Source: Heterostelium multicystogenum (taxonomy: Eukaryota > Evosea > Eumycetozoa > Acytosteliales > Acytosteliaceae). Taken from it: a stretch of 63,472 bases of DNA. The position numbers and the translations under genes were made by a program. The DNA lies in NCBI GenBank assembly GCA_003667245.1, contig RCNN01000177.1, forward strand, positions 1 to 63,472. The letters are read 5' to 3'. Below the pieces are notes generated by a model. The model was not told where the DNA came from, did no database searches, and worked only from the letters and a program-made list of their open reading frames with translations. Positions 23,183-45,131 of this stretch are shown piece after piece; positions within the stretch are counted from its first letter, which is position 1, and each line of letters opens with the position of its first letter.

Positions 23183-25108
23183 ATGTTGGTACTTCCAAAG
23201 TTAGACATCAAGGACATCTTTTGGGTTTTCTATATAGTTTTCTTAATTCCAAAGTTAAACTTTTTTCAGCAGCTTTGGCTATCAAACAATAATGTCTGTC
23301 AGAGAATTATTCCCTTTTTTCAAATGGGTAAGTTAACTTTAGAATAGTTTCCAATTGGAAACATCATTAATAGCTTATATGTTATTTCAAATAAAAATAG
23401 GGTTTCAACATTAGAAGATCAAACTTCTTGGTTCCAATCCTTAGTAATAATATAATTGTAACTGGTGAGGAGGCAGTTAGTTTCGAAAAGCCTTTGCCAA
23501 TTAAAGATTCACTACAGCTTTTGGGTGATAAATCACTCTCTGTCGTATGTTCAGCCGATTCCGTTTCTCCTCAAAATTCTGCTCCAGTCACCGAAAAAGA
23601 TATCATCGTTGCTTTGCTAGAGAAGAAAAATTTACAAAACAAAAGTCAAATTAAACATCAAACAACAACCATCACCTCAATCGCCTCAACAACAAGATTC
23701 AGATAAAGATCAAAAAGAGAAACAACATGCAAACCAATTCCATCACCACAATCCCACACAACAATCACTATTATATTTATCAGACAAAGAAATTATTGCC
23801 AAAATTGAAAAAGGTGAGATTCCACCTCTATCGATTGGAAGCCGAGCTTGGTGACTGCAGCAGAGCCGTCGAAATCCGAAGAGCAGTCCTCGAAAAGAAT
23901 ATCGAAAAGACCATTCCCGAACTCCCACATACTTCATACGACTTCTCCAAGGTTCTCGGTGCCTGTTGTGAGAACGTCATTGGTTACGTACCCATTCCAG
24001 TCGGTACTGCCGGTCCACTCATGTTGAACAACCAGCCAGTTAACGTTCCAATGGCCACCACAGAGGGTTGTTTAGTTGCCAGCACACACAGAGGTTGTCG
24101 CGCCATCTCCGAGTCTGGTGGTGCCAAAGCAACCATCATTTCTCGAGGAATGACAAGAGCACCAGTTGTTCGTTTCCCAAGTATTATTAGAGTTGGTGAA
24201 TGCGTAGAATGGCTCAAAGAATCGGCAAACTACGAAACCGTAAAGAAAGAGTTTGATTCAACCAGTAGATTTGCAAGATTGACTGGACTTAAAACCACAG
24301 TTGCTGGTCGTTCTTTATATATTAGATTCAAATGCGATACTGGAGATGCTATGGGAATGAACATGGTATCCAAAGGTGTAGAGGCAGTGCTTAATTTATT
24401 AAAAATTCAATTTAAAGATATGGAAATATTAAGGTAACTATACATGATTACAATTCAATATCAGAAAATAGATAGATATTAAACATTTTACATTATAGTT
24501 TATCAGGAAATATGTGTACAGATAAGAAACCATCAGCAATCAACTGGATTGAAGGTAGAGGTAGAACTGTTGTGAGTGAAGCAATTATCAGCGGTGAAAT
24601 TTGCAAAAAGTCTTGAAAACTTCTGTTCAGGCAATGGTCGATTTGAATATTTCAAAGAATTTAGTTGGTTTCAGCTATGGCTGGTTCAGTTGGTGGTTTT
24701 TAACGCAACATGCTGCCAACATCGTCACAGCTATCTTCTTGGCAACTGGTCAGGACTGTGCTCAAAATGTAGAGTCTTCCAATTGCATAACACTCATGGA
24801 GGCCTGCAACGATGGTAAAGATCTCTATATAAACAGTTACAATGCCCTCGATTGAAGTTGGTACTGTTGGTGGTGGTACTTTCTTACCAGCACAATCTTC
24901 ATGTTTAGATATTATTTGGTGTCAAGGGATCCAAGCCAGGTTTTCCAGGTCAAAACACGCCGACCAATTGGCAAGAATAGTATGTGCTACTGTAATGGCT
25001 GGTGAGTTGAGTTTAATGGCAGCCCTATCAGCAGGTCATTTAATGAAATCCCATCTTCAGCTAAATAGAAAAACAAGTAGTACAAGTTTGGAAATAAAGA
25101 GTGTGTAG
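23183..25108 (+). CDS. hmgA: HMG-CoA reductase (hmgA type)
   Basis: This enzyme reduces HMG-CoA to mevalonate with NADPH at the ER membrane, feeding sterol and isoprenoid synthesis. The clear reading begins at an ATG at 23292 ([12 protein letters not shown]), with an intron at 23328-23400. An upstream ATG at 23183 opens a frame with a hydrophobic segment ([15 protein letters not shown]) that is probably the membrane anchor, joined by a one-base frame break. The linker region contains [18 protein letters not shown]. The catalytic domain shows [11 protein letters not shown] with the catalytic Glu, [15 protein letters not shown] with the catalytic Lys, GDAMGMNM with the catalytic Asp, and [11 protein letters not shown] with the catalytic His. 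A second intron lies about 24435-24499. Frame breaks cluster at about 24603-24715 (three short runs one base too long or short), and others lie near 23690-23870 and 24930. All four catalytic residues are present. There is no multi-pass sterol-sensing domain. Confidence 0.92.
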
Positions 25109-25270
25109 TTTATATATATTATAGAAAGAGTTAATTTATATTCTTCATCAATGAATGAATTTAATTATATTTTTAACTTTGATATTTGGTCTGTTAAGTT
25201 GGAATAAACACTTGGTGCATCTCTTGGAGGGGCGATTGGAGTGATATATTTAACTGTCCCGTCCATTTCA

Positions 25271-28200
25271 CTAAAATTCTGTGGCATTAGGAATACCAAT
25301 ATGTCCAATTACTTCTCCATTCTCATTCGTTACTTCTTCATTGAGTTCATGTTCTGTATACCTCAAAAGTGCATCTAAGGCGGTGTTATAATCCAAAAGT
25401 CCGTTTAAAGGATCTATCGTTTGGTTCATTGCGTCAGTGAGACCCATTAGAGCGTGTCCCCAGGTAATTCTTGTTGGATCGCAAGTTGGGAATCCATAGA
25501 AATAGAAGGGATTGATACCCTGTTCTACCACACTCTCAAAGTATAGTCCAGAATGACAAGCATCGATCAGGATGGTTGTGTTGACTGTATCCTGGCATGG
25601 TAGAATTTGATGTAGTTCAAAGTTCTAAAATAGATTGATTATCAATGCATGGCATCACATATCTTTGATGTCCTTGTATAGGGAATAATTCCTCCATGCC
25701 CAGCATAAACAACATACAATACATCTTCCTTTGATCGGTACCAGCTGCTAGGGTTGTAAGTTGATTGAAATATTGGTTTTTGTGTGGATAGCACTTGCAT
25801 AGGAATTTGGAATTGTTTCTGGATCTGATTTAACTTTATCTTCTGATGATGATGCCTATATTCATTTTGGTGAAATTGAGGTTTATTTCCAGAGACTGTC
25901 TCAACAAATCAGTCAAAGTAATCCAGATACAGATGTGATTATACAAATAGTTTCTCTTGTTGAAAATACCGACATGAATGACAGAGCTCCCACAAAAACC
26001 CAATAGCCTTTAAATAACATATCTGTCTCTTATTTCCTTTTTTTGCCTTATTACTTTTGTTGGAAATCATATTAAGTTGTGAGTTTGGATAGAGTCCATA
26101 TTCTTCATCTATTTCATTGTGGGACCTCTTTTTCTTGTTTGCAGTATCAAAGGCTGTTACTTGGAAAGGCATAGGAATTGTTTCTGGGTTATCAGCATCT
26201 GTTGGGTTCAAGTGATGATAGTGTGTCCAATGGATTGGTATTGAAGTTATCTGGGAATGAGTATGTCTCAATTGCAGTACCACTTGAATATCCACGACGG
26301 ACCAATGATAGAGTAATAAAATGCACCATCTTTTATTGCTCTGTCAATCAATCCAGCACCAATTAATCGCAATGCTGTTTTGATATCATCTGATATTGTA
26401 TTGAGGTTCTGGTTGATGTTGACCAGCAACTATTGTTCCAACAGCCAATGATAATATTTTTGTTAAAAAGGAGTCAGTAGCTTCTGACATTACCTTTTTG
26501 ATTGGCATTGACAAGATTGAGCTGATCTCATGTTTCCAGGTGTAGCATAATAGGTGATGTTATTATTAAATGTTGTTCCTGATGATATTCCATTGACCAT
26601 CTATACCTGATGATTGAGTTGTGATTGATACAAATGGCATATTTGGAGAATAAACAGAGGTGGCTGGCATTCGGTATGAACTACTGACCTTTATATTGTG
26701 GATCTGCTGGTGATACTGATTGACATGGATTAGATTCCTTTACCAACGACACCAATGATACTGAATGATGATTTGGCTAGGGAACCCGGAGTGTTTGCTC
26801 CAAGTTTGTTGATCATTGCATTTTTTGCCGAGAGTGTGAGTGATGTCAACCAGTCACCCATTGCTGCAATAGCCACTACCTTTCCATTTTCAAGTCCATT
26901 TAAATACTGAAGCAAATTGATCTGATTCACTTGTGCTGGTACATGTATTAAATGACTGAACAAGTTCTATTTACTCCATTTATTGGAGAAACTACCATCA
27001 TATTAAGTCCAGGAGAGCTCTCAAAAGGCAGTAATTGGCTCAGAGATTGATTAAGAAAATTAGCAAAACTTCACTTGGGTCAATCTAATATTATTAATTA
27101 GTAATCAAATTTAATGATCTTGATAAAAATAACTTACACCTCCTTTGCTTATAGCTTGAATTTCAACAAATGGTTTTGACTGAAAAGTATGGACCATTTA
27201 AATATGAAAATAGAGAAACGGGACCTTTCGGATTGATAATCTCAGGAACAGATCCAGGTGGACATCCTTTACGTCCAATGAGCGCATATGAGCTTCCAGA
27301 ATTTATTGTTTCGGATAAATTGGCACCAAGTGTACGGAGGAGTTGGTTAGGTAACTAGGAAGTTGATTATATTTGCTTGGAATCACTGATGAGCATATGA
27401 TAAACCATTGACCCAACAGATATTTGAGAGTTGATATAATTAGCGGCTTGAGTGATGGTAAGTTGTGATTTTGATGGGAGTAACTCCATCATCAATAATT
27501 TGGAATGTTCCCAGGTTGATTCCAAGTGCTTCATCATAAACAGCCATGTTGAAGAGATAACTACCAAGTTGAGGCATTGGCATGATTGGAACCACCATTG
27601 ACAGAGGTATAACAATTACTTCCTCCCCATTAATTGATTACATGAACCCAACTGAGGCCATTGGAGCATATTGATCGGTTATTTTTGGATAGAAAAGCCC
27701 ATTACATACAGATGCTGGGTTTGAAGTTGATTCACAACAAACAATTGATGCTTTTGAGATGATAAACCATTTTTGATTCAGAACTATTGATATACTTATC
27801 TATTTAACGACTTTTCCTAACTTCTTATTATGAGATCTGATGTTGATTTCATCAATCCCAAAATCCATCACTATTTTTTTTTCCAATGACCAAGATGATT
27901 ACGTCCTCCTTTTGTTCTTTGATAACATTGACCAAAAATCATAGTTGGCTGAAATGGATGTTTCTGTGGAAACAGTATCAAATGAAGAGTTGTAAAAGTA
28001 GATTTAATTGAGGAGTAAAGATCATTACATTCAATTCCAAGATTGTATGTAAATTTAATTGGTTTTCCATAGCTTTCACAAAGGGCGGTTTGAGAGTCAA
28101 CAATTGTAACTGATAAGTTATTTGGAGTTGGGACAATACTGCTGATCGGAGTTGATAGTGTAGATCCAATTGTTTCTATGGCTGTTCCCATTGGTTTTCC

Positions 28201-28548
28201 TTTGTATCCAACAATATTATAGTAAGTGGTAGTAGGTGCAGTCAATGTATAAATCATAATTCCTCCAATTGACATCAAAGCATTCTTTACTGTGTTTGAC
28301 ATGTAAGTTGTACCTGACTTGATTCGACATGCAACAAGGGTTCCAATAGGCAATGATGAAAAGAAGTTGGAAAATAATGAGTGCGTCATTCTCATCCCTC
28401 AAGAAAAAGTACTATTTTGGAATGGAGGATCTACACCTCCATTCGTATACATATAGATCTATGCTCCTATTTGATGAATTTGGCCAAAGGATTCCATTGT
28501 ATGTGATACCAGAGTCCCCATACTAATAGTACTACTGTTATTTCCCAT
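25271..28548 (-). CDS. Five ILEI/FAM3-like domains fused to a caspase-fold (C14) protease with intact catalytic motifs
   Basis: The family is the same as the three plus-strand copies to its right, but clearly diverged. It probably starts at 28548 (MGNNSSTISMG). ILEI-type cores are visible as LPIGTLVACRIKSG (about 28360), a second near 27730-27960, INSQISVGSMVYHMLIS (about 27400), YLNGLENGKVVAIAAMGDW (about 26900), and LSLAVGTIVAGQHQ (about 26430). The string SSYALIGRKGCPPGSVPE is nearly identical to the plus-strand copies. An intron at 27085-27137 sits at the same place as in those copies. A basic linker (ANKKKRSHNEIDEEYG, then KAKKGNKR) precedes the protease domain. YVVYAGHGGIIP (about 25690-25715) and TILIDACHSGLYFES (about 25535-25580) are the His and Cys motifs of clan CD proteases, and an in-frame intron-like gap separates them. 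It ends at NATEF. There are many frame breaks, so whether it is functional must be checked. It converges on hmgA. Confidence 0.7.
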
Positions 28549-29585
28549 TGTTATAACTTTAATTAATTTGTAAAATATTAATTGTATTTACAATAGAGAG
28601 TAAAGTTACTTTGGTATAACTCTAAATTTATAAATGATCCAAGATATATATGGATATCTTAGCAAGTTGAATCCCTCATCCAAAAAATATTGACGACATA
28701 TTATCCTTAATTTAGTTTATCCGTTTCCAGTATTTCCAGCTTCAATACTTAAACCTGGTTATGATAAATCAAGATTTTTACTAAATCTTAAAAACATTGT
28801 ATCAAAAAATCTTTCAAGATTTGCATGGGACTTTTATTTTTTCAAACAACCCCAATGTTTTTATTTTAATTAATGTGTTTTATTTGGTTTTTTTCTGGGA
28901 CATGAATGTCACGGAACAAAGTGGGTGTTTTTCACACCAATGACTACGTATGCATATGTTATCAACGTGGCAATCTAAAAACTATATATAGATTCTATAT
29001 CATTCTAGACACTCTATCTATCATTGACCTTAAAAAAGTATTACCAAGGTGAAAACCAGTTTCAATACCTAAAAAGAACTTTCTGGATTAAGATTCAAGC
29101 ACAACAGCCTACCATTGATTTGCTACAACCAATGAGAGCATGGTCGAATCAATCAATTTGAATCAAATTCCAGCAACTTCTAATGAGGTTCCTTCTACTT
29201 CGTCTGCAAAGAAAATGCCAACCATTTCTCCCTGGTGGTGCACAACCCTGCACAGTTGGAAAAATATCTGATTGCCACATAAATTACATGACACTAAAAC
29301 AAATTTATTTATTTTATAAATATATTTTACTAAAAGAATCTATATTTAAAGTCATTGTCAAACCGATTTCCCTGATTAAACGCCAGGAAACCGCTCGAAT
29401 TTTATTCCCTCATTTGTAACTGTAAAGTAAATTATTTAAATCTCAAAGAGAAATAGAATAATAACACAAACTGTTATTTTAATTTCATCAAATAATATAT
29501 CTTCATTTAAAAGGTAAGTTTAGAAATCTTGAAATGATTGCAATAACATATATTAATACAATATTTAACAATAGTAGATATTGTA
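28549..29585. other. About 1-kb divergent promoter region of the ILEI-caspase cluster
   Basis: This region separates the minus-strand ILEI-caspase gene from plus-strand copy 1 and must hold both promoters. A short open stretch at about 29140-29271 (MVESINLNQIPATSNEVPST, then KKMPTISPWWCTTLHSW) has no recognisable domain; it could be an unrelated small gene or a fragment. A short hairpin (GGTGT/ACACC arms) lies near 28930. Confidence 0.4.
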
Positions 29586-32500
29586 ATGACAAACACTTAT
29601 CCGATTAAGTTAATTTCTCGCTCACCTCCTTCCAATACCATCGTTTATTTACTTTGGTTTGGATCATATTGAAAGTATAATGTTGGTCCCGGATTCAACA
29701 TCTGGGTGTGTGATCGTTCAATAGAGTTCCCTCCTTTTTCGTTCAAAAATTAACTCATACCAAAACATAGATACCCTTATATCATATATCAAAAGTATTC
29801 CTATGGGTACTACAGTGGCAATAATGGGCATTGGCAAACTTGCCATCAATGCCAAGCAAAGCACTTTGCAATGCATTCTCATCATTGGGATCAGCACTCA
29901 TATATATGGTTGGTATTTCAAATCCAAACTATTGTCTGGTTGGATACAAAGGTATGGCTCCTGGAATGGCAAGTGAGCAATATGGTGATTCAATTCAGAA
30001 AGAAGTATCTGCAGAAGCACCGTTATCCAAAAAGTCAATTTTGATCAGAAGAATAGAAACATCTTTTCCTGCAACAACACCACCTCCAACTGGTCCAAAT
30101 ATCAATTTCAATAATTTTGGAGTAAACAATTGGTTCAAGGATTTGGGAAATGGATTCAATGTTATTACTTTCGATCAAGATGTTCAACTGGGACGTGGAA
30201 CAACAACTCATCAATTTCCCAACCTCGAATATCAACTCTAATGCATCAGAGTCACTCTCAAGGTATCTTGATTCACTCTCTTTGAACACTTTGGTCATGA
30301 TTTTCACAAAAGGACTTAATTTGGCCAAGAACAACTTACATGACAATGCAATCACGAGTTTAACGAATATTGGAAGCAAATTTATCAGTAACTTCTCTCA
30401 GAACTCCTCAAATGATTGTTGGTTTATGATAAAGAAGATTGGATCAAACTCTATCTTCAGTGAGTTGGCATTCAATCATCTTAAACCATGTTCTTCATCA
30501 TTCTTCTTTAATACGAATACAAATTTGAAAGATTTACCAGGATTGAGTATCAAAGATGATGATATATATCTATCAGTGATGTCATCCAACACCACACTCA
30601 TCGGAATGAATGAAGCATTCTATATGTATATTGGTGGAGTCTCAATATCATTCAGTGACACCAAAGGATTGCTCATGTGTGTTATAAGTGAAATCGATGG
30701 AATACCATACATTAATAAAAGTTATGATATCAGTACAACTCAAGGATCTCAAGATATGGTCACAGATATCTTGGAGAATATCACAATTGGATCATTAGTC
30801 ATCATATGCTCTGGATCAAACTCAAAGAGCACATTCACAATATCTGATTCACTTGCCGATGCAATGGGTAGTCTTGGTGCTCAATTAGCCTCTGATATTG
30901 TACCAACAAGTTCATATGCACTCATTGGAAGAAAAGGAGCTCTTGTTTGGATCAGTTCCAGAGAGTCTCTCAAACAATGGTCCTGTTGTATTGTTCTCAA
31001 ATTTTCCAAAATTAGTCAAACCTGTCAAATCATTCATTGAAATAGATGCATTGTCAGTTAGTGTAAGGTCTATAAATTTATAGAATATAATTCATGATGA
31101 TTAACAATAAATTATTTCAATAGGCATTCCCTGGAGGAGGTGGTGGATATTCAAACTTCAGGATCAATAATCAGATAGTAAAAGGACCATATTCATCTGG
31201 ACTCAATGTATTAACGATCAATTCCACTGAATGGAACTGTTATGAGTTCTAAAAACTATGATACAAACCATTGATGCATATAATGATATTAAATTTGTTC
31301 AAGATATAGAATCACTTCCAGTTGGAACAATTGTTGCAATATCAACCATAGGACCAGCTGGATCATATCTCAACAATGGAAGAGATGCAATTATCAAATA
31401 TCTTGGAGGAATGCTCATCAAATCATATTCTTCTCAATCATATTGTATCATTTCAACTGTTGGACAACAACTCACTGGAGATAAACGAGTAATCAGTGAA
31501 TGTATGTCTGATAATAGTTATTTGATGACAATTTGTTATTCCAGATTCCCAATTAAATCACTTTTCACAGGTTCTGGTCTTTCATTTTGTGTTACATCGA
31601 TGGCTCAATCAAGTTCGGCAACAAGAATTATGGTTAATGATCAATCAGTATTACAAACAACTTCAAGTGGACTCAATGTTGTAACTGTTGATCCAATCAC
31701 TGGTTCTTTTTCAGAGAACCATTTTGACACAGCCAACGATGAGCAACAATGGCTTACATTCTTAAAATATATCCAATCATTGAGTGTTGGTACATTTGTC
31801 TTGATATCAGTTCAAAATTCAATTGGCAACTTTACTTCGAATGGAACAAAAGATATTATGAGAATATCATTATCATTGATTGGTGCATCAAAGTTCATCA
31901 AAGTTGAACCATCATTCTCATATGCCATCATTGGAACCAAAGGATCTTCAGTTGGATCAGCATTTGAAGCAATCAGTGCAAATTCACAAGTTTGTGTTGC
32001 ATCATGGGAACCAAAACTATCTTCGTCACTAAAATCTGGTACAAATTATGGAGTTCTACCAGATGAACAATGTATATTTTCAGTTCCATCATTGAGCAAC
32101 TATCATTCAAACATCAGTCCAATACCAATTTTGGAAAACTTCAATCCAATGGGTAACATTTATGTCAATGAACCAGCAAATTGGATTACATATAGATCAT
32201 CAACAGAGAACATTGTCAAAGCACTTCTAGTTGGAGTTTCATATAACGATAATCCATCTGGAAGTTACCCTGGAATGAATTATGCAATTCAAGAACATGC
32301 CAGATCACTTGTCCAATGTGGATATGTCCAAAAAGAAAACATTCGAATTTTGACAGAAGATATTTCACAAGTTTCAAATGATGGAACATATATCAATCGT
32401 CCAACAACAGTTTGTATTCGAGATCAAATCAACAATTGGCTCAAGAAGGATGTTGTTGCTGGAGATGTAATATATTTTGTTTTTGCTGGAAGATCATTCA

Positions 32501-35022
32501 GTAACACTGTCAATGGACAGACTACATATGGTCTCTGTACCATTTGTTCAAGACCAACAAATGGGATATCGTACAGATTATTCTATTACTTCAGATGTGA
32601 TTTCGCAACTATTTTCAGATTTACCAGTGGGTGTTACAATGACATTCCTCTTGGACTGTTTCAAATTCATTCTCAATGATGACATCTGGAATTAATTCAG
32701 GTTCCTTCGAAAATTTAATGAATGGATTGTTTTCAATTGAATCTGGAATTCAACCACAACCAACCACAACAGACGATAAACTTCCTTCCAATGATAAATG
32801 ATATTCTTAAGAATGGATATAGTCAATCTCCAACACCAATGACCTTTAATGATATTTTTGCCAAAGCATCATCGAATAAGCTCTATCCAACAACACCTTA
32901 TCTTTATAAAGGTGGTACTCTTAAAATTCCTCAGTGCAATGCCCCACGATATTTATCCTGTGTACCGATACCAAAAATCTATTGAAGCAAATTATCAATA
33001 TGTTTATACAACAAATCAATCTATGGATGGTTGGTTAGGAAAGGACTTTGGTATGGAGAGTATTTCGTACAGGATTTTCTAATCGAGCTCGACCACTATA
33101 TCAATTCACAAAGCCTCAATCTAATGGTCCATTGCTCTACTTTTTATCTTTGGATCAAAATATTGGTGATGGTTGGACGAATATTGGAACAATTGGAGAT
33201 GTATTATACTTCCCCATTATCCAGAGGACTTCCAATTCGACAATTCGTTTCCTCTTTAGGCGTGAGCAATACAAAAATGTATGCTTTTCAAGAAACTATA
33301 CCTCCTGCAACAGGTAATCAAGTATGGACTGATAATGGAATTGTTTTTCTTTGCTCCTCAAGATGAGAAACAATCGGAATTAGGTGCAGTGTTCACTCAA
33401 GGAGGAATGATATCATGTGATCATATTACAGCATACAACTTTGGTACCAATGATTTCTCAATATCGGTATCATTTAAGACCTCAAAAGCAGGTGCACTTG
33501 TTTGTTGTAAAGGAATAAATGGGAGGAGCCGGTACTGGAGGTTTTACAGTTGATATTAAAGTTTCCGATATTGAATTCATTGTGCATAATGGAAGTTCTG
33601 GAATAACACTAAGAAGTAATTTTGCTAAAGTTACTGATGGAAAATGGCACGATCTTGTCTGTGTTCGTAAATCTGGTGTATTATCTATATATATAGATAA
33701 AGGGCTTAACGGGAGGGCAAGTACACCGACACCACTTGATGTGAGCAACAATACCGTCTTGACTTTTGGTGAAAAACATCCCGACACCAAATCAGTTCAT
33801 TGGAGTCATGTCTCATGTTGGACTCTGGAACATTGCAATCGATCCTGAAACATTAAATCATTCAGAGATCAGTACTCAGAAAGATGTGAAGTTAATACCT
33901 GGTTTGGTTGGATTTTGGAACTTGCTCAGAGATTCATTTGATACTTCACCCAATGGTAATAATGGTAAAATAACAAACAATGTACAGTTTACTCCACCTG
34001 GCCCAGCAACAGATTCAATTCAAATCTTTAAAAAAGGTCAAGTCTTGATACCATCAAATAACATCTATAACTTCTCTTTCTTGGATTTTTCAGTGACATG
34101 TATGTTCCAAACCAAGTCAACTGGTTTGAGTCCACTTGTCATCCGTAAACCTGCGGCAGGCGGACGCAATAATGGTGGTTTCAGAGTGGAAATTCGAGAT
34201 GGAGGATATATAAATTTTACAGTTGATGATGGAACTAGTGGACATGATTTGGTATCTCCGGTTGCAATTCCATTAAATGGAACTTGGACGAGTGTGGCTT
34301 GTGTTCGAAAGGGTGGTATATGCTATATCTACATAAATGGTACACGTGTGGCCGATTCCAGTCCCTTTACGACATATGTCGATAATTCCAATCCAGTGCA
34401 ATTCGGACAATCACAACAACAACCCAATGCTCAGTTTATCGGAAGAATGAAACATGTTAGTATTTGGAATGTTGCAATTGATCAAAATACGATCAACAAA
34501 GCAGCGAATGGAAATATTTCGCCAAGTGATCCTGGATTGGTTGGATACTGGAAATTGATGTCAGATGCAATTGATAGTTCACCGATTGCCAACAACAATG
34601 GCACCACAATGATGAATACAGCCTTTGTCAATGCAAGTGATAATCTCATGACAGCAACGGAGAGTGACTCAGAATCCATACAATCTACAACAAAAGATGG
34701 TGTGGTTGGTGAGAACGAATCCAATGATCAAGAAGATAAAGAGAATCTAGAGTCAATTTTGTCACGACACAAAAAGGAAATCGAAGATTATTTTGCTACC
34801 AAGAAAACAATAAACATACATTATCATCAATTTAGAATAAATAATCTATCTATCATTATTTTCTTTCAAGGATAGTATTGTTTTTGAGTTCTTGTCGGAT
34901 GTGATGACACAACAACTCAAGATACTCATGCTGTTCTGGCTGAGACCTATTCAACTATGACAACGACTATGAAAGGAAATTTTTCTTTATACAGATATAT
35001 CTTATTTCATTTAAATTTTTAG
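29586..35022 (+). CDS. Copy 1: ILEI x5 - pseudo-caspase - DUF5648-like - LamG x2 protein, frame-broken
   Basis: The start is the ATG at 29586 (MTNTYPIKLISRSPP), aligned with the starts of copies 2 and 3. Five ILEI-like domains run to about 32090, with a conserved intron at 31063-31123. Next is a C14 caspase fold. It opens with NIVKALLVGVSYNDNPSG, then has IYFVFAGRSF where GHG is expected, and LPVGVTMTFLLDC followed (after a one-base frame break) by SNSF where a DxCHSG motif is expected. Both catalytic residues are therefore replaced (His to Arg, Cys to Ser). After it comes a region with YRYQKSIEANYQYVYTTNQS and RARPLYQFTKPQSNGPLLYF, resembling DUF5648 repeats. Two LamG/ConA-like domains follow (about 33380-33970 and 34010-34620; for example WTSVACVRKGGICYIYING and LVGYWKLMSD). 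The end is an acidic tail, then RHKKEIEDYFATKK and a Thr-rich end near 35020. Single-base insertions relative to copies 2 and 3 (for example AAA for AA at about 29836) break the frame. Confidence 0.7.
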
Positions 35023-35279
35023 ATATATATAGATATATGTTTGTGTTGTTTTTTTTTAGTTTATTAAAATTGATTGATTGATGGATGCTTACAATAAAAC
35101 AGTGTGATTTAGTGTGTTATACCTCTCAATAACTGAAGATAATTGTAAAAAAACTTTTATTAATTTAATAAAATCAACTTTTTTAGAAACTGTGCAAAAT
35201 AATTTAAATTTTATAACATTTTTGTGTTGCCCAATTTTTTCATCCGTAGTTGTAGTACTGAAAACTTCAAATAATTGAG

Positions 35280-37896
35280 ATGGTATACATCATTAAGTTA
35301 ATTTCTCGCTCACCTCCTGCAAAACCATCGTTTATTCACTATAGTTTGGATAATATTGCATCTTATAATGTTGGTCCCGGATTCAACATCTGGGTGGGTA
35401 ATCGTGCATTAGTGCACCCTCCTTTTACTTTCTACAATTACTCATACCAAAACATAGATACCCTTGTATCATATATCAAAAGTATTCCTATGGGTACTAC
35501 AGTGGCAATAATGAGCATTGGCAACTTGCCATCAATGCCAAGCAAAGCACTTTGTAATGCATTCTCATCATTGGGATCAGCACTCATATATATGGTTTGG
35601 TATTTCAAATCCAAACTATTGTCTGGTTGGATACAAAGGTATGGCTCCTGGAATGGCAAGTGAACAATATGGTGATTCAAATCAGAATGAAGTATCTGCA
35701 GAAGCACCATTATCCACAAAGTCATTTTTGATCAAAAGAATAGAAACATGGTTTCCTGAAACAACACCACCTCCAACTGGTCCAAATATCAATTTCAATA
35801 TTTTTACAGTAAACAATTGGTTCAAGGATTTGGGTAATGGATTCAATGTTATTACTTTCGATCAAGATGTTCAACTGGGACGTAGAACTCAACAACTCGT
35901 CAATTTCCCAACCTCTAATATCAACTCTAATGCATCAGAGTCACTCTCAAGGTATCTTGATTCACTCTCTTTGAACACTTTGGTCATGATTTTCACAAAA
36001 GGACTTAATTTGGCCAAGAACAACTTACATGACAATGCAATCACGAGTTTAACGAATATTGGAAGCAAATTTATCAACAACTTCTCTCAGAACTCCTCAA
36101 ATGATTGTTGGTTTATGATAAAGAAGATTGGTTCAAACTCTATGTTTGGTGAGTTGGCATTCAATCATCTTAAACCATGCTCTTCATCATTCTTCTTTAA
36201 TATGAATCCAAAATCGAAGAATTTGCCGAGATTGAGTAGCAAAGATGATGATACATATCTATCAGTGATGTCATCCAACACCACACTCACTGGAATGAAT
36301 GAAGCATTCTATATGTATGTTGGTGGAGTCTCAATATCATTCAGTGACACCAAAGGATTACTCATGTGTGTCATAAGTGAAATCGATGGAATACCATATT
36401 TTAATAAAGGTTATGATATCAGTACAACTCAAGGATCCCAAGATATGGTCACAGATATCTTGGAGAATATCACAATTGGATCATTAGTCATCATATGCTC
36501 TGGATCAAACTCAAAGAGCACATTCACAATATCTGATTCACTTGCCGATGCAATGGGTAGTCTTGGTGCTCAATTAGCCTCTGATATTGTACCAACAAGT
36601 TCATATGCACTCATTGGAAGAAAAGGAGCTCTTCCTGGATCAGTTCCAGAGAATCTCTCAAACAATGGTCCTGTTGTATTGTTCTCAAATTTTCAAAAAT
36701 CAGTCAAACCTGTCAAATCATTCATTGAAATAGATGCATTGTCAGTTAGTGTAAGTCTATAAATTTTATAGATTATAATTCATGATGATTAACAATAAAT
36801 AATTTCAATAGACATTCCCTGGTGGAGATAGTGGATATTCAAACTTCAGGATCAATAATCAGATAGTAAAAGGACCATATTCATCTGGACTCAATGTATT
36901 AACGATCAATCCACTGAATGGAACTGTTTTGAGTGCTAAAACTATGATACAACCATTGATTCACATAATGATGTTAAATTTGTTCAAGATATAGAATCAC
37001 TTCCAGTCGGAACAATTGTTGCAATATCAACCATGGGACCAGCTGGATCATATCTCAAAAATGGAAGAGATGCAATTATCAACTATCTTGGAGGAATGCT
37101 CATCAAATCATATTCTTCTCAATCATATTGTATCATTTCAACTGTTGGACAACAACTCACTGGAGATAAACGAGTAATCAGTGAATGTATGTCTGATAAT
37201 AGTTATTTGATGTCAGTTTGTAATCTCCGATTCCCATTAAAATCACTTTTCACAGGTTCTGGTCTTTCATTTTGTGTTACATCGATGGCTCATTCAAGTT
37301 CAGCAACAAGAATTATGGTTAATGATCAATCAGTATTACAAACAACTTCAAGTGGACTCAATGTTGTAACTGTTGATCCAATCACTGGTTCTTTTTCAGA
37401 GAACCATTTTGACACAGCCAACGATGAGCAACAATGGCTTACATTCTTAAAATATATCCAATCATTGAGTATTGGTACATTTGTCTTGATATCAGTTCAA
37501 AATTCAATTGGCAACTTTACTTTAAATGGAACAAAAGATATGATGAGAATATCATTATCATTGATTGGTGCATCAAAGTTCATCAAAGTTGAACCATCAT
37601 TCTCATATGCCATCATTGGAACCAAAGGATCTTCAGTTGGATCAGCATTTGAAGCAATCAGTGCAAATACACAAGTTTGTGTTGCATCATGGGAACCAAA
37701 ACCATCTTCGTCACTAAAATCTGGAACAAATTATGGAGTTCTACCAGATGAACAATGTATATTTTCAGTTCCATCATTGAGTAACTATCATTCAAACATA
37801 AGTCCAATACCAATTTTGGAAAACTCCAATCCAACTGGTAAAAGGAAATTGGACGATGATACTCCTCAAGTAGACAATAAATTCTTTAAATCATAG
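35280..37896 (+). CDS. Copy 2: short-form ILEI x5 protein, frame-broken
   Basis: This is nearly identical to copy 3 through its whole coding length. It starts MVYIIKLISRSPPAKPS and has an intron at 36751-36811. It ends in the same basic/acidic tail (TGKRKLDDDTPQVDNKFFKS). One extra T near 35600 and one missing A near 36943 relative to copy 3 break the frame; both are in short homopolymer runs. If these are sequencing errors the product would be an intact protein of about 850 residues. No signal peptide or membrane segment is visible. The region immediately after its stop (37897 onward) matches the 3' flank of copy 3 for about 75 bases and then jumps into caspase-domain sequence (see the pseudogene entry). 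Confidence 0.7.
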
Positions 37897-37974
37897 ATTT
37901 TTATGAATGTATACTTTCATATTGATTCACAAAAGGATACTTATTTCAATTGCCACTGTTTCTTACTTTAGACT

Positions 37975-38828
37975 TATTGGATTTACCATTTGGTGTTACA
38001 ATGACATTCCTCTTGGACTGTTCAAATTCATTCACAATGATGACATCTGGAATCAATTCAGGTTCCTTCGAATCTTTTATAAATGGATTGTTTTCAATTG
38101 AATCTGGAATTCAACCACAACCAACACAACAGACGATAAGCTTCCTTCCAATGATAAATGATATTCTTAAGAATGGATATAGTCAATCTCCAACACCAAT
38201 GACCTTTAATGATATTTTTGCCAAAGCATCATCGAATAAGCTCTATCCAACAACACCTTATCTTTATAAAGGTGGTTCTCTTAAATTCCTCAGTGCAATG
38301 CCCCACCATCTTCGTCCTGTATACAGATACCAAAAATCTATTGAAGAAAATTATCAATATGTTTATACAACAAATCAATCTAGATGGTTGGTTAGGAAAG
38401 ACATTAGTATGGGAAGTTTATCGTACTGGATTTTCTAATCGAGCTCGACCACTATACCAATTCACAAAGCCTCAATCTAATGGTCCATTGCTCTACTTTT
38501 TATCTTTGGATCAAAATATTGGTGATGGTTGGACATTTGATACTTCACCCAATGGTAACAATGGTAAAATAATATTATCACGACACAAAAAGGAAATTGA
38601 AGATTATTTTGCTACCAGGAAAAAAATAAAATACCATCATCAATTTAGAATAAATAATCTATCTATCATTATTATCAAGGATAGTATTGTTTGTTCATGT
38701 CGGATGTTATGACAACAACTCAAGATACTCATGCTGTTCTGGCTGAGACCTATTCAACTATGACAACGACTGTGAAAGGAAATTTTTCTTTTTATACAGA
38801 TATATATCTTATTTCATTTAAATTTTAG
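37975..38828 (+). pseudogene. Remnant of a long-form gene: half caspase fold, DUF5648-like region and tail, both LamG domains deleted
   Basis: The sequence resumes abruptly inside the caspase fold (LPFGVTMTFLLDCSNSF), just at the position of the catalytic-Cys loop of copy 1. It then continues through the DUF5648-like region to IGDGW. There copy 1's first LamG domain (about 33177-33935) is missing. After 30 shared bases around FDTSPNGNNGKI a second gap removes the other LamG domain (about 33970-34755), and the end resumes with LSRHKKEIEDYFATRK. A final open stretch reads SDVMTTTQDTHAVLAETYS and stops at 38828. It has no start of its own. I read it as the decayed 3' part of a long-form gene left behind when copy 2 acquired the short-form end. 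Confidence 0.65.
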
Positions 38829-38966: not shown

Positions 38967-41583
38967 ATGGTACACATCATTAAGTTAATTTCTCGCTCAC
39001 CTCCTGCAAAACCATCGTTTATTTACTATAGTTGGGATGATATTGAAAGTTATAATGTTGGTCCCGGATTCAACATCTGGGTGGGTAATCGTTCAATAGT
39101 GCACCCTCCTTTTACTTTCTACAATTACTCATACCAAAACATAGATACCCTTGTATCATATATCAAAAGTATTCCTATGGGTACTACAGTGGCAATAATG
39201 GGCATTGGCAACTTGCCATCAATGCCAAGCAAAGCACTTTGTAATGCATTCTCATCATTGGGATCAGCACTCATATATATGGTTGGTATTTCAAATCCAA
39301 ACTATTGTCTGGTTGGATACAAAGGTATGGCTCCTGGAATGGCAAGTGAACAATATGGTGATTCAAATCAGAATGAAGTATCGTCAGAAGCACCATTATC
39401 CACAAAGTCATTTTTGATCAAAAGAATAAGAACATGGTTTCCTGAAACAACACCACCTCCAACTGGTCCAAATATCAATTTCAATAATTTTACAGTAAAC
39501 AATTGGTTCAAGGATTTGGGAAATGGATTCAATGTTATTACTTTCGATCAAGATGTTCAACTGGGACGTAGAACTCAACAACTCGTCAATTTCCCAACCT
39601 CGAATATCAACTCTAATGCATCAGAGTTACTCTCAAGGTATCTTGATTCACTCTCTTTGAACACTTTGGTCATGATTTTCACAAAAGGACTTAATTTGGC
39701 CAAGAACAACTTACATGACAATGCAATCACGAGTTTAACGAATATTGGAAGCAAATTTATCAACAACTTTTCTCAGAACTCCTCAAATGATTGTTGGTTT
39801 ATGATAAAGAAGATTGGATCAAACTCTATGTTCGGTGAGTTGGCATTCAATCATCTTAAACCATGTTCTTCATCATTCTTCTTTAATATGAATCCAAAAT
39901 CGAAGAATTTGCCGAGATTGAGTAGCAAAGATGATGATACATATCTATCAGTGATGTCATCCAACACCACACTCACTGGAATGAATGAAGCATTCTATAT
40001 GTATGTTGGTGGAGTCTCAATATCATTCAGTGACACCAAAGGATTACTCATGTGTGTCATAAGTGAAATCGATGGAATACCATACATTAATAAAGGTTAT
40101 GATATCAGTACAACTCAAGGATCTCAAGATATGGTCACAGATATCTTGGAGAATATCACAATTGGATCATTAGTCATCATATGCTCTGGATCAAACTCAA
40201 AGAGCACATTCACAATATCTGATTCACTTGCCGATGCAATGGGTAGTCTTGGTGCTCAATTAGCCTCTGATATTGTTCCAACAAGTTCATATGCACTCAT
40301 TGGAAGAAAAGGAGCTCCTCTTGGATCAGTTCCAGAGAGTCTCTCAAACAATGGTCCTGTTGTATTGTTCTCAAATTTTCAAAAATCAGTCAAACCTGTC
40401 AAATCATTCATTGAAATAGATGCAGTATCTCTCAGTGTAAGTCTATAAATTTTATAGATTATAATTCATGATGATTAACAATAAATTATTTCAATAGACA
40501 TTCCCTGGTGGAGATAGTGGATATTCAAACTTCAGGATCAATAATCAGATAGTAAAAGGACCATATTCATCTGGACTCAATGTATTAACGATCAATCCAC
40601 TGAATGGAACTGTTATGAGTTCTAAAAACTATGATACAACCATTGATTCACATAATGATATTAAATTTGTTCAAGATATAGAATCACTTCCAGTTGGAAC
40701 AATTGTTGCAATATCAACCATAGGACCAGCTGGATCATATCTCAAAAATGGAAGAGATGCAATTATCAACTATCTTGGAGGAATGCTCATCAAATCATAT
40801 TCTTCTCAATCATATTGTATCATTTCAACTGTTGGACAACAACTCACTGGAGATAAACGAGTAATCAGTGAATGTATGTCTGATAATAGTTATTTGATGT
40901 CAGTTTGTAATCTCCGATTCCCATTAAAATCACTTTTCACAGGTTCTGGTCTTTCATTTTGTGTTACATCGATGGCTCATTCAAGTACATCAACACGAAT
41001 TATGGTTAATGATCAATCGGTATTACAAACAACTTCAAGTGGACTCAATGTTGTAACTGTTGATCCAACCACTGGTTCTTTTTCAGAGAACCATTTTGAC
41101 ACAGCCAACGATGAGCAACAATGGCTTACATTCTTAAAATATATCCAATCATTGAGTATTGGTACATTTGTCTTGATATCAGTTCAAAATTCAATTGGCA
41201 ACTTTACTTCGAATGGAACCAAAGATATGATGAGAATATCATTATCATTGATTGGTGCATCAAAGTTCATCAAAGTTGAACCATCATTCTCATATGCCAT
41301 CATTGGAACCAAAGGATCATCAGTTGGATCAGCATTTGAAGCAATCAGTGCAAATACACAAGTTTGTGTTGCATCATGGGAACCAAAACCATCTTCGTCA
41401 CTAAAATCTGGAACAAATTATGGAGTTCTACCAGATGAACAATGTATATTTTCAGTTCCATCATTGAGTAACTATCATTCAAACATAAGTCCAATACCAA
41501 TTTTGGAAAACTCCAATCCAACTGGTAAAAGGAAATTGGACGATGATACTCCTCAAGTAGACAATAAATTCTTTAAATCATAG
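38967..41583 (+). CDS. Copy 3: intact short-form protein of five ILEI/FAM3-like domains with basic tail
   Basis: This is the only unbroken member. Exon 1 is 38967-40436, the intron 40437-40497 (61 nt, GTAAGT...TAG), and exon 2 40498-41583; the join is in frame and gives 851 residues. Five ILEI-like domains are at about residues 34-130, 187-295, 360-460, 515-620 and 672-780. Each shows a GFN/GLN-V-hydrophobic strand, an 'I-x-S-L/I-P-x-G-T-x-V-x-I' strand (for example IKSIPMGTTVAIMGIG, IESLPVGTIVAISTIG), a helix with SLG or LGG, and a 'Y-x-x-I/V-G-x-K-G' turn (SYALIGRKG, CLVGYKGM, SYAIIGTKGS). In animals ILEI/FAM3 domains occur in secreted FAM3 cytokines, POMGNT1 and CEMIP, where some bind sugars. 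This protein has no signal peptide. It ends KRKLDDDTPQVDNKFFKS, which looks like a nuclear-localisation-type basic patch. The function is unknown. Confidence 0.8.
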
Positions 41584-41921: not shown

Positions 41922-44900
41922 TTATGCAACACGTGGAATACACACTTTGACTTTGACGAACAAAAGTACCAAGAAACCGAGAATGACAAAGATAACGATA
42001 TTGTGTGCATGGTATGAAGAGGCATATGGCCATTGTTTTTCGGTTTGACGCAAAGCCATAGGAATGAATGACCACAGATGCCAACAGGTAGAGAAGGCGA
42101 AACCAGCTACGACAATCAAGAGCCACATATCATCTTGGAAACAATTGAAACGAAGCATTGTCAAAAGAATTGCAACAATGTTAGCACCGAAAAGGAAGAT
42201 ATTAGCTAAGAACAAACGGGAGTTCTTGATGGTGTCTGACTCCTTGTTTGAAGAACGGAAAGATTGTTCGGCTTTCTTTGGTCCAGTTGATTCTTCAACT
42301 CCGGCGGCGGTAACAAGCTTGGCTTGACGGAAGGACTCAACGATAACTGGTTTCTTGACAAAGTCACGCTTCCAGTTCCACATGGCTAATTTGTGACGAC
42401 TAATACGACGTTGCTTCAAAAGACGAACAATTGAAGCGGAACCTGCTTTCCAGGCGGCAATGTAGGTACCAGCAAAGGCAAAGAAAGTTTGTTCGGCTCT
42501 CCACAAGTCAGTGGCTTCGACCCAAAGAGATGGACCTGAACGACCGGCTTCATATGGACGACGTGCTCTGAGGATCATGTATTGGATGACACGTGGCAAA
42601 ATCATGACTGGAATCATACCGACGAGAATGAAAATGACTGGATCAGTTACAACGATTGGAACAGTCCAGAGACACATAATCAATGGTGAAAGACCATAGA
42701 AGAAGGCAGTTGGTGACAAGAATGGATAGATACATGAATCGAGGTTATAAAGCATCTTACGCCATCCAAGCTTAGATCTGATGAATGACCATGGAGTGAG
42801 TGAAAAGATTTCAACGGCACCCTGAGCCCAACGCTTACGTTGTTCCAATGTTTCCTTGATATCAACTGGAGCAGTACCAACGACAAGGACTTCATTGTGA
42901 TACCATGACTTGTAACCACTGACTTGCAACTTCATACCGGTATACATATCTTCTGTTACAGAGTTATACATAATACCTCCAATGTCATAGAGTGGTTGAC
43001 GACGGAAAACAGCATTAGTACCTACGAATGGACAAGCACCGTTGGCAGAACGACCTTCCATTACTGGACCGTAGAACTCCATATTACGATGACCCAATGG
43101 ATCGTCAACTGGATAGATGTTACTGAAGAACTGTGGAGTCTGGACGAATGCACATTCGGCACCCTCATCAGAGTAGAAATATGGCATGACACGTTTCAAA
43201 AAGTCTGGATGTGGCTGTTGATCGGCATCAAGCAATCCAATGAATTCAAAGTCGGCCTTTGTTGACTCATTGAAGAGTGCATTGTTAATGTTACCTGCCT
43301 TGTTGTGTGGAATGGGTGGTTTACGACGACGCAAGTAGGTGCATTTTGGTGAAATAACGGTTCCTGATGGCTCAAAGTCGATACGGACATTACCGGTAGA
43401 GATTTCTTCGAATGGAACTTCTTGACGTCCCATCATCAATACTGAGTATTGTGCCATGGCCAATGCTTCAGTGTTTAAGAAACGCAAACGGTGACTGTTG
43501 TTGAGATCACGGATAAAGTTACGGACATAGTCTTTCTTGATCAAGACGGAACGGACCAATGGACGATACATTGCATTACCGTGCCACAATGATTGGAGTG
43601 ATTCAATTGTGAAGTTATTGATCTTTTCACGCTCCAATGCTGAGAAGGTACGGTATGGAGAGAAGTTGTCTTCACGTAACTTGCTGATCAATGATTTCTC
43701 ACTATCGTCGGCTTCACGTTGTTCCTCTTGGTTGATACCAAAGAGTGAGTTGAGTTGGAAGTACTCGATGAACCATTGGACTTCAGCTTCGATGACTTCC
43801 TTGGTAGTGGCAGCAATACGATCGGTGGTTTCAGAGAGAATACCATGTGGATCTTCGTTGGCTTTAGCTACTGGTGGTGCAATATGATGAACTGCATAGA
43901 TCGAACGTTGCAAAAGTTGGAAGAGGAAATTCTTCTCAACTGATTGGAGATGTGCCCAACCACGACTCTCACGGAAATTGGCAGAATCGTCTAGCAAACC
44001 AATCCAGAGATTCTCTGATGGATAGTCCATAGCGATGGCGGTTCTGAAGGTACGAGAAACGATTGAGGGTGGCTCCTTGTAAGTGGTGATGTACATCATG
44101 ACATTGGGGAACTTCTTTCTACGCTTGGCAAGGATTTGTTCAAGGGTTACAACCAAGATGAATGTGCATGGATTGGTAAAGTTATTCAAATGGAGTGCAG
44201 TAGCCAAGAAAGACACAAACTCAACGATGAAGAAGAGTGCTGAGAAACCCATGGTGTAAACATCGTGAGTATTGATAGTCCAACCGGCACGATATGCGAA
44301 ATAGAAAAGATTCCAAACCAAGAAGACAGCCATGGTAGCTTGGAGAATTGAGTGTGAGAAGTATGGCTTGACTTCGAAGACGACTTCCTTCTTTTCCTCA
44401 CCGATAATGGTTTCGAGGGTTTCAAAAGAGTCGTCTTGCATGTTGGTTGTGGTGGCTTTACGCTTAACTTGCATCTGAGACTTCTTCTTGATCATTGCTT
44501 GCTCACGTTCCTTGGTCTTCTCCATCTCGAGGTGAGCCTTGTGTTGACGCATCTTCTCTTCCATCTCGGCAGGTGTGATATCTGGATCTATAAGTGTTTC
44601 GAAACGTGGAGTGGTCATTGAGCCACGGGCTGGTTCCATCAGTGGGGAATGGGCATTGGTGTCCTCAGTTCCGTCGCTAATGGGAAGACCCTCAGTTCCG
44701 TCGTCGGCATTGAAACCGTCGTCTTCGCCAAAGTCCATGATCGTGTTCTTCTTCTTGAGCATGGAGGTCGACGACTTGAGTTTACGCTCGCTGTCCTTGC
44801 GACCCGAGATTTTCTTCTTGGCCAACTCTCTGTCCATTGGCTTCTCCTTGTTGTTCCACTTCCACTTGATGTTGTTGGACGATGGTTTTGGCTTGAGATT

Positions 44901-45131
44901 TCGGCTGGATCCCGAACCACTGAGACCCATCAGCTGATGGCTGCTATCCATTCTCGATGGATAGCTGTTGTGACCGTCTACACCATGACGACTGCTACTC
45001 ATGCTACTACCAACACCACCATTGTTATTGTTGTTATTATTACTCGATGATGATGATGATGATGCTGTAGTGGTAGTGCTAGTTTGTTGTGTTGGAGCAG
45101 AAGGTGTATTTAATGGTATATCACCTTCCAT
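41922..45131 (-). CDS. dcsA: Cellulose synthase DcsA
   Basis: DcsA makes the cellulose of stalk, spore coat and sheath from UDP-glucose at the plasma membrane. The gene is a single unbroken exon of 1069 codons, close to the length of the known dictyostelid enzyme. The cytosolic N-terminal about 260 residues are low-complexity (poly-Ser, poly-Asn), then basic and acidic. Two membrane segments follow (about residues 262-312, with MAVFLVWNLFYFAY and ALFFIVEFVSFLATAL). The GT2 domain has the four hallmark sites: LLDDSANF, LLDADQQPHPDF (DxD), SVTEDMYTG (TED) and QRKRWAQG (QxxRW). A C-terminal cluster of membrane segments completes the channel, ending VKVKVCIPRVA. It is preceded by an 8.2-kb gene-free region that may contain developmental control elements, and it converges on ILEI copy 3. 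Confidence 0.96.
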   Translation of the reverse strand: MEGDIPLNTPSAPTQQTSTTTTASSSSSSSNNNNNNNGGVGSSMSSSRHGVDGHNSYPSRMDSSHQLMGLSGSGSSRNLKPKPSSNNIKWKWNNKEKPMDRELAKKKISGRKDSERKLKSSTSMLKKKNTIMDFGEDDGFNADDGTEGLPISDGTEDTNAHSPLMEPARGSMTTPRFETLIDPDITPAEMEEKMRQHKAHLEMEKTKEREQAMIKKKSQMQVKRKATTTNMQDDSFETLETIIGEEKKEVVFEVKPYFSHSILQATMAVFLVWNLFYFAYRAGWTINTHDVYTMGFSALFFIVEFVSFLATALHLNNFTNPCTFILVVTLEQILAKRRKKFPNVMMYITTYKEPPSIVSRTFRTAIAMDYPSENLWIGLLDDSANFRESRGWAHLQSVEKNFLFQLLQRSIYAVHHIAPPVAKANEDPHGILSETTDRIAATTKEVIEAEVQWFIEYFQLNSLFGINQEEQREADDSEKSLISKLREDNFSPYRTFSALEREKINNFTIESLQSLWHGNAMYRPLVRSVLIKKDYVRNFIRDLNNSHRLRFLNTEALAMAQYSVLMMGRQEVPFEEISTGNVRIDFEPSGTVISPKCTYLRRRKPPIPHNKAGNINNALFNESTKADFEFIGLLDADQQPHPDFLKRVMPYFYSDEGAECAFVQTPQFFSNIYPVDDPLGHRNMEFYGPVMEGRSANGACPFVGTNAVFRRQPLYDIGGIMYNSVTEDMYTGMKLQVSGYKSWYHNEVLVVGTAPVDIKETLEQRKRWAQGAVEIFSLTPWSFIRSKLGWRKMLYNLDSCIYPFLSPTAFFYGLSPLIMCLWTVPIVVTDPVIFILVGMIPVMILPRVIQYMILRARRPYEAGRSGPSLWVEATDLWRAEQTFFAFAGTYIAAWKAGSASIVRLLKQRRISRHKLAMWNWKRDFVKKPVIVESFRQAKLVTAAGVEESTGPKKAEQSFRSSNKESDTIKNSRLFLANIFLFGANIVAILLTMLRFNCFQDDMWLLIVVAGFAFSTCWHLWSFIPMALRQTEKQWPYASSYHAHNIVIFVILGFLVLLFVKVKVCIPRVA

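Follow-up and report, generated by a model that had tools for sequence, protein, structure and literature searches.

Metacaspases are assigned broadly to protists, fungi, algae and plants in a table that places Dictyostelium under the paracaspases, and the available part of the same article describes TbMCA1 and TbMCA4 as metacaspases in which the catalytic dyad is replaced (PMC6657590). For ILEI domains, the excerpted part of a study on POMGnT1 describes a stem in which Arg129, Asp179 and Arg207 hold GlcNAc, and it also reports FAM3C to bind sugar (PMC9802357). A preliminary description of the locus investigated here had joined both subjects by claiming an undescribed architecture, in which a possibly sugar- or protein-binding ILEI array steers or restrains a caspase-like protease inside the cell. 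As far as can be read from its genome, related five-ILEI genes form a small cluster in this social amoeba, and some of them contain a metacaspase-like domain.

Layout of the ILEI gene cluster

The window, contig RCNN01000177.1 (C177) of Heterostelium multicystogenum, comprises the whole stretch of 63,472 nucleotides that was analysed, and the genome searched along with it amounts to 29.7 Mb in 528 contigs. The window holds four ILEI gene copies. M occupies 25.2-28.6 kb of the minus strand; A, B and C form a tandem array within 29.5-41.6 kb of the plus strand and are mutually 95-98% identical in aligned DNA. M and A are divergently oriented, facing away from each other. The features are:

23655..25105, plus strand: HMG-CoA reductase, the sole one detected in the genome, split into consecutive pieces whose frame changes, adjoining M
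25168..28566, minus strand: copy M, frame-broken, with four to five ILEI units, a basic linker and a caspase-clan (C14) segment
25280..25751, minus strand: C14-like segment of M (PF00656 on read-through)
25548..25564, minus strand: Cys motif DACHSG of M, GATGCTTGTCATTCTGG, sole match in the window
25691..25707, minus strand: His motif YAGHGG of M, TATGCTGGGCATGGAGG, sole match in the window
25775..26000, minus strand: disrupted stretch of M between linker and His motif, with an inverted repeat and a shared 31 bp
25984..26199, minus strand: basic linker of M, KKKRS...KSNKAKKGNKR
26742..26924, minus strand: ILEI unit 4 of M (Pfam 37.1 bits, over the cut-off in the raw frame)
27085..27137, minus strand: probable intron of M (GT...AG), read from the sequence, between ILEI 3 and 4 as in copy C
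27169..27471, minus strand: ILEI unit 3 of M (match to Polysphondylium violaceum P0005, E 2.7e-7)
28198..28383, minus strand: ILEI unit 1 of M (Pfam 32.4 bits, over the cut-off in the raw frame)
29560..32913, plus strand: copy A, five ILEI units followed by a metacaspase-like domain, with frame breaks
33519..34872, plus strand: two LamG-like domains downstream of A, part of its gene or separate
35262..38435, plus strand: copy B, five ILEI units, a basic tail and the remnant of a metacaspase-like domain
38967..40436, plus strand: copy C exon 1 (ILEI 1-3), intact
40498..41583, plus strand: copy C exon 2 (ILEI 4-5, tail GKRKLDDDTPQVDNKFFKS, stop), intact
41925-45194: cellulose synthase, open over 1090 codons

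A six-frame Pfam search of the genome detected at least 17 ILEI stretches, 16 in C177 and one on contig C89, and all 17 of those listed pass the curated cut-off of PF15711 (two in M, four in A, five each in B and C, one in the C89 copy). A profile of eight units (five from C, one from the metagenomic protein P0004 and two from the cyanobacterial protein P0007) retrieves FAM3B, TMEM2, POMGnT1, FAM3A and FAM3C from the PDB at 1.3e-13 to 3.4e-9, and the ILEI identity of the amoeba units is firm at the level of such profiles. In the corresponding six-frame search for Pfam C14, the genome has a single listed match, on contig C197, and none in the window. On C89 (L010 2244-3814), we found a partial and frame-broken copy of the ILEI gene.

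Two exons, with a 61-base GT-AG intron between them, give copy C an open frame of 851 amino acids that encodes five ILEI domains without a protease domain. Its terminal tail is common to B and C and differs by one residue in the C89 copy. In B, LLDCSNSF is readable in one frame. Four ILEI domains of A exceed the Pfam cut-off and the first was identified by alignment to P0001 of Cavenderia fasciculata and to C; with four stops, A aligns with residues 540-1110 of P0005 at 29% identity, and of the eight indels that disrupt its frame compared with B and C, six insert a single base. Of the LamG-like part downstream of A, copy B contains, according to a DNA search, only the 3' tail and a piece of 39 bp. 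A DUF5648 domain, considered as a candidate for the region downstream of A, was not found by Pfam.

The catalytic motifs claimed for the minus strand, YAGHGG and DACHSG, are found exactly and uniquely in the window, and the basic linker is present at 25984-26199. Neither motif is matched in 100 shuffles each, and with a distance of about 47 codons both dyad motifs of M are proper in form and spacing. Reading through M required 25 joins in frames picked by eye. In this read-through, four ILEI stretches pass Pfam and a wider profile aligns five rows of 39 to 94 residues, one near full length, so that the ILEI identity of the five proposed cores is upheld but their number is four to five instead of five clean units. 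In the HMM searches, ILEI exceeds its cut-off. For PF00656, the cut-off is 21.4 bits and the chosen frames score 21.3 (E=2.5e-4); neither of the raw frames in which the two motifs are located yields a Pfam C14 match. Since the C14 piece of M shows no convincing match to a profile of the C-terminal domains of its sisters, it may be of separate origin. A DNA search of the genome found no second copy of M. A protein search with the M read-through returned nothing at E<=0.01, and since it also missed P0001, P0004 and P0005, it is uninformative on the relatives of M.

Between the linker and the His motif of M, a perfect 10-bp inverted repeat brackets 206 bp, whose opposite strand is open over 25803-26003 (67 codons). 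Within this stretch, 31 bp are identical to a gene on contig C232 (L036 2634-2664), which we labelled copine-like from its sequence. We considered the stretch as a flipped piece of the C14 domain and found no support for this: the open strand has no C14 match in Pfam, the PDB or the sister profile. Its best matches are a sub-threshold Fn3_VIN3 in Pfam (E 0.013) and an oxidoreductase in the PDB (E 0.2).

ILEI arrays and C-terminal domains in other proteins

Protein searches with copy C and with P0004 each yielded four proteins, in the latter case including P0004 itself. The closest named match to C is P0001 (DFA_00561) of Cavenderia fasciculata, with 58% identity over 91%. Five ILEI domains are followed by a C-terminal domain in P0005 of Polysphondylium violaceum (CYY_004688, predicted, 1122 amino acids) and in the metagenomic P0004 (predicted, 1123 amino acids), which are 55% identical over their length. 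The gene model of P0001 contains a shortened C-terminal domain lacking both motif regions, and P0006 (853 amino acids) stops before this domain. In P0003 (EukProt gene3515-4016_t), two ILEI stretches are joined to a GNT-I domain, which is the pair found in POMGnT1; this could be a chimeric gene model. The fusion of an ILEI array with a caspase-clan domain exists beyond the window in the form of single predicted proteins, and the search for the same architecture in other species has thus succeeded in P. violaceum and in a metagenome. Its designation as undescribed is in line with the open-licence full-text literature, where no description of an ILEI-metacaspase architecture was found among the matches listed. 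While each part is of a known kind, the combination of an ILEI array with a metacaspase-like domain is new. The assumed location inside the cell agrees with a simple hydropathy check, which detected no obvious signal peptide in the proteins.

Judged by sequence profiles, the C-terminal domain of A, P0004 and P0005 is of the metacaspase type and derived from metacaspases. Pfam C14 matches neither P0004 nor P0005, but for a profile of P0004, P0005 and A, built without M, the sole PDB matches up to E=10 are three sequences of T. brucei MCA2 (8.5e-8 to 1.3e-7), which bears out the caspase-clan nature proposed for the joined domain. After addition of P0001 and M, the profile finds eight PDB matches, all of them metacaspases, the best at 1.4e-10. 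AlphaFold models of P0004 and P0005 (mean pLDDT 56.9 and 61.6) are usable in their ILEI parts. In both, the C-terminal domain follows the order beta-alpha-beta-alpha-beta-alpha-beta of a caspase fold at low confidence, with blocks of ten residues reaching at most about 66 and many below 50. Metacaspases are the first high-probability non-ILEI matches of both models in Foldseek, with best probabilities of 0.97-0.99 and E-values of 0.011 to 0.26, which are too weak to stand alone.

A different picture emerges for the catalytic residues. At the position of the His, P0004, P0005 and A contain an Arg (GRG, GRG and GRS) compared to GHG in M, and at the position of the Cys they contain Asp, Asp and Ser (DCDYS, DCDYS and DCSNS) compared to DACHS in M. 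P0001 lacks both columns and M is the only one of the five aligned rows to show GHG together with DACHS. The dyad is lost in all three domains that are readable at both motifs, where for copy A the motif FAGRSF is located in one frame and the Cys motif was read across a manual join. The term protease is therefore not supported as a general property of this architecture. With both catalytic residues replaced in A, P0004 and P0005, their C-terminal domain is likely a pseudo-protease, and the sequences suggest a pseudo-metacaspase.

The proposed sugar-binding role of the array is not supported by the sequences, as the R-D-R triad of POMGnT1 is present in none of 36 amoeba-type ILEI rows (M, C and P0001-P0006), 12 of which are readable at all three columns. 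Among the 36, the Asp is found in two rows and the second Arg in one. In the five rows of M, the first column is always a gap and neither Asp nor second Arg occurs, with one row carrying no letter at the latter column. A sugar site elsewhere in the amoeba units is possible. Of 11 cyanobacterial rows, which come from P0007, L013 and two of the three L014 frames (with L015 left out), 9 retain the triad, as do 3/3 animal segments, all three of which were used in building the profile.

Contrary to the statement that ILEI domains are mainly known from animals, cyanobacteria carry ILEI arrays. We observed proteins with two to five such domains at L013 3532-5640, at L014 2483-3748 and 5497-6594, and in P0007. 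When bacterial and archaeal genomes were scanned, P0007 as query found no relative; with its repeat alignment as query, three loci were identified. Within the cyanobacterial phylum, ILEI matches occur in 3 of 386 genomes, two of them over the cut-off, and one of these genomes was chosen as centre for having ILEI.

Frame breaks of copy M and competing explanations

We consider it moderately probable that the described genes belong to a dictyostelid family of intracellular five-ILEI proteins, some of which carry a dead metacaspase-derived domain, and that M, if expressed, is an active member. Of this, the domain architecture, the dyad loss in the members readable at both motifs, the missing triad and the intact ILEI-only copy are evident from the sequences. 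The C-terminal module would be a pseudo-protease, whose most likely role is binding or dimerisation. Since the ILEI units contain no POMGnT1 sugar triad, the array would most likely act as a protein-binding scaffold that positions this module. M would be a diverged and divergently transcribed sister, which has kept both catalytic motifs. In enzyme/pseudo-enzyme pairs found elsewhere, the inactive partner restrains the active one or competes for its partners; the dead and protease-free sisters could similarly bind and restrain M or compete for its partners. A narrower version, where M and A are enzyme and pseudo-enzyme arranged head to head around a shared promoter region and the protease-free ILEI copies act as competitors, appears unlikely; if true, the M/A pair would constitute a metacaspase regulatory system in social amoebae.

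That M is instead a decaying pseudogene, whose motifs are relics and where only ILEI-only copies such as C work in this species, is possible though in our view doubtful. It would account for the 25 joins needed for its reading and for the stretch inside its C14 part, which is bracketed by an inverted repeat and shares 31 bp with a copine-like gene. It would also agree with the indels and losses of A and B while C is intact, and with dN/dS ratios of 0.76 (A:C) and 0.43 (B:C), the former of which is weak evidence for constraint on A and leaves unsettled whether this copy is dead. However, the adjacent sole HMG-CoA reductase is itself frame-broken, and the breaks in M are thus no proof of a pseudogene. 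Four pieces of this gene match PF00368 at 1-188, 187-226, 224-296 and 297-368, with the frame changing each time; a 41-bp gap at the first change provides room for a short intron, whereas the pieces overlap at the other two and leave none. Similarly, the C14 gene on C197 is spread across frames that overlap, so that such breaks can result from assembly error. Since both genes are broken while cellulose synthase and C are open, local indel error in the assembly is likely and uneven, and M adjoins a bad stretch. A further argument against decay is the third-position bias, which M has kept like C: GC3 of its read-through is 0.30 compared to 0.41 and 0.40 at positions 1 and 2, and none of 2000 random-frame draws is as low. 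With GC3 values of 0.271 in C, 0.376 in a piece of HMG-CoA reductase and 0.463 in cellulose synthase, where the bias is missing, this test is soft, and a live gene and a young pseudogene would look alike in it.

The reading closest to the preliminary description, in which M acts as a caspase-like protease that an ILEI array with sugar-binding function directs or holds in check, draws on the exact and well-spaced motifs, the 21.3 bits for PF00656 on the read-through and the sugar binding ascribed to FAM3C and the POMGnT1 stem in the excerpted study (PMC9802357). We regard it as improbable in light of the triad, whose Asp or second Arg is found in none of the five rows of M, the sister domains devoid of a dyad and the lack of a readable frame in M. 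Even less probable is an ILEI gene placed beside an unrelated C14 gene by chance or misassembly. The disruption immediately upstream of the His motif and a C14 piece that is not detectably close to the sister domains would both fit such a juxtaposition, but the same order of domains recurs in A, P0004, P0005 and, with the domain shortened, in P0001.

Relation to known systems

The dictyostelid paracaspase shares with the C-terminal domain of the amoeba ILEI proteins its membership in the caspase clan. Paracaspases are recognised by Ig or death domains or by their grouping in trees. The C14 gene on C197 (L011 2585-3768), which contains YSGHG and DCCRSN followed by cysteine-rich stretches, is probably the paracaspase of this organism, and no ILEI match was found on its contig. 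The protease-clan architectures of social amoebae would be extended by a metacaspase-derived domain combined with an ILEI array.

With respect to the array, the amoeba units share their fold with FAM3/ILEI, the POMGnT1 stem and TMEM2, as reflected in profile and Foldseek matches, but they differ in the tandem arrangement of five domains, in that no triad is seen and in that there is no obvious signal peptide. Several tandem ILEI domains are also found in the cyanobacterial arrays (Microcoleus P0007, L013 and L014), with a match of P0007 to P0004 at E 6.7e-49 that covers 71% of the latter. In contrast to the amoeba proteins, the cyanobacterial arrays have kept the triad in most rows, and P0007, the one scanned, is without Pfam C14. 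The triad, absent in amoeba units and present in the cyanobacterial and animal units examined, would define a testable split in ILEI function.

With respect to the C-terminal domain, the closest relationship is found to type I metacaspases of family C14, such as T. brucei MCA2 and yeast metacaspase-1 (Yca1), where about 150 residues align with MCA2 through the His and Cys region. Metacaspases cut at Arg or Lys and depend on calcium. Unlike these enzymes, the amoeba proteins carry an ILEI array in front and have their dyad replaced in all three readable cases. We know of no ILEI array in TbMCA1 or TbMCA4. Both proteins, as portrayed in the available part of the article cited above, resemble the amoeba domains in their replaced dyad and offer precedents for dyad-less metacaspases, although the replacements are Tyr/Ser in the trypanosome proteins and Arg and Asp/Ser in those of the amoebae. 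The dyad loss common to copy A and Polysphondylium would represent a natural case of a pseudo-metacaspase that is kept for a non-cutting role.
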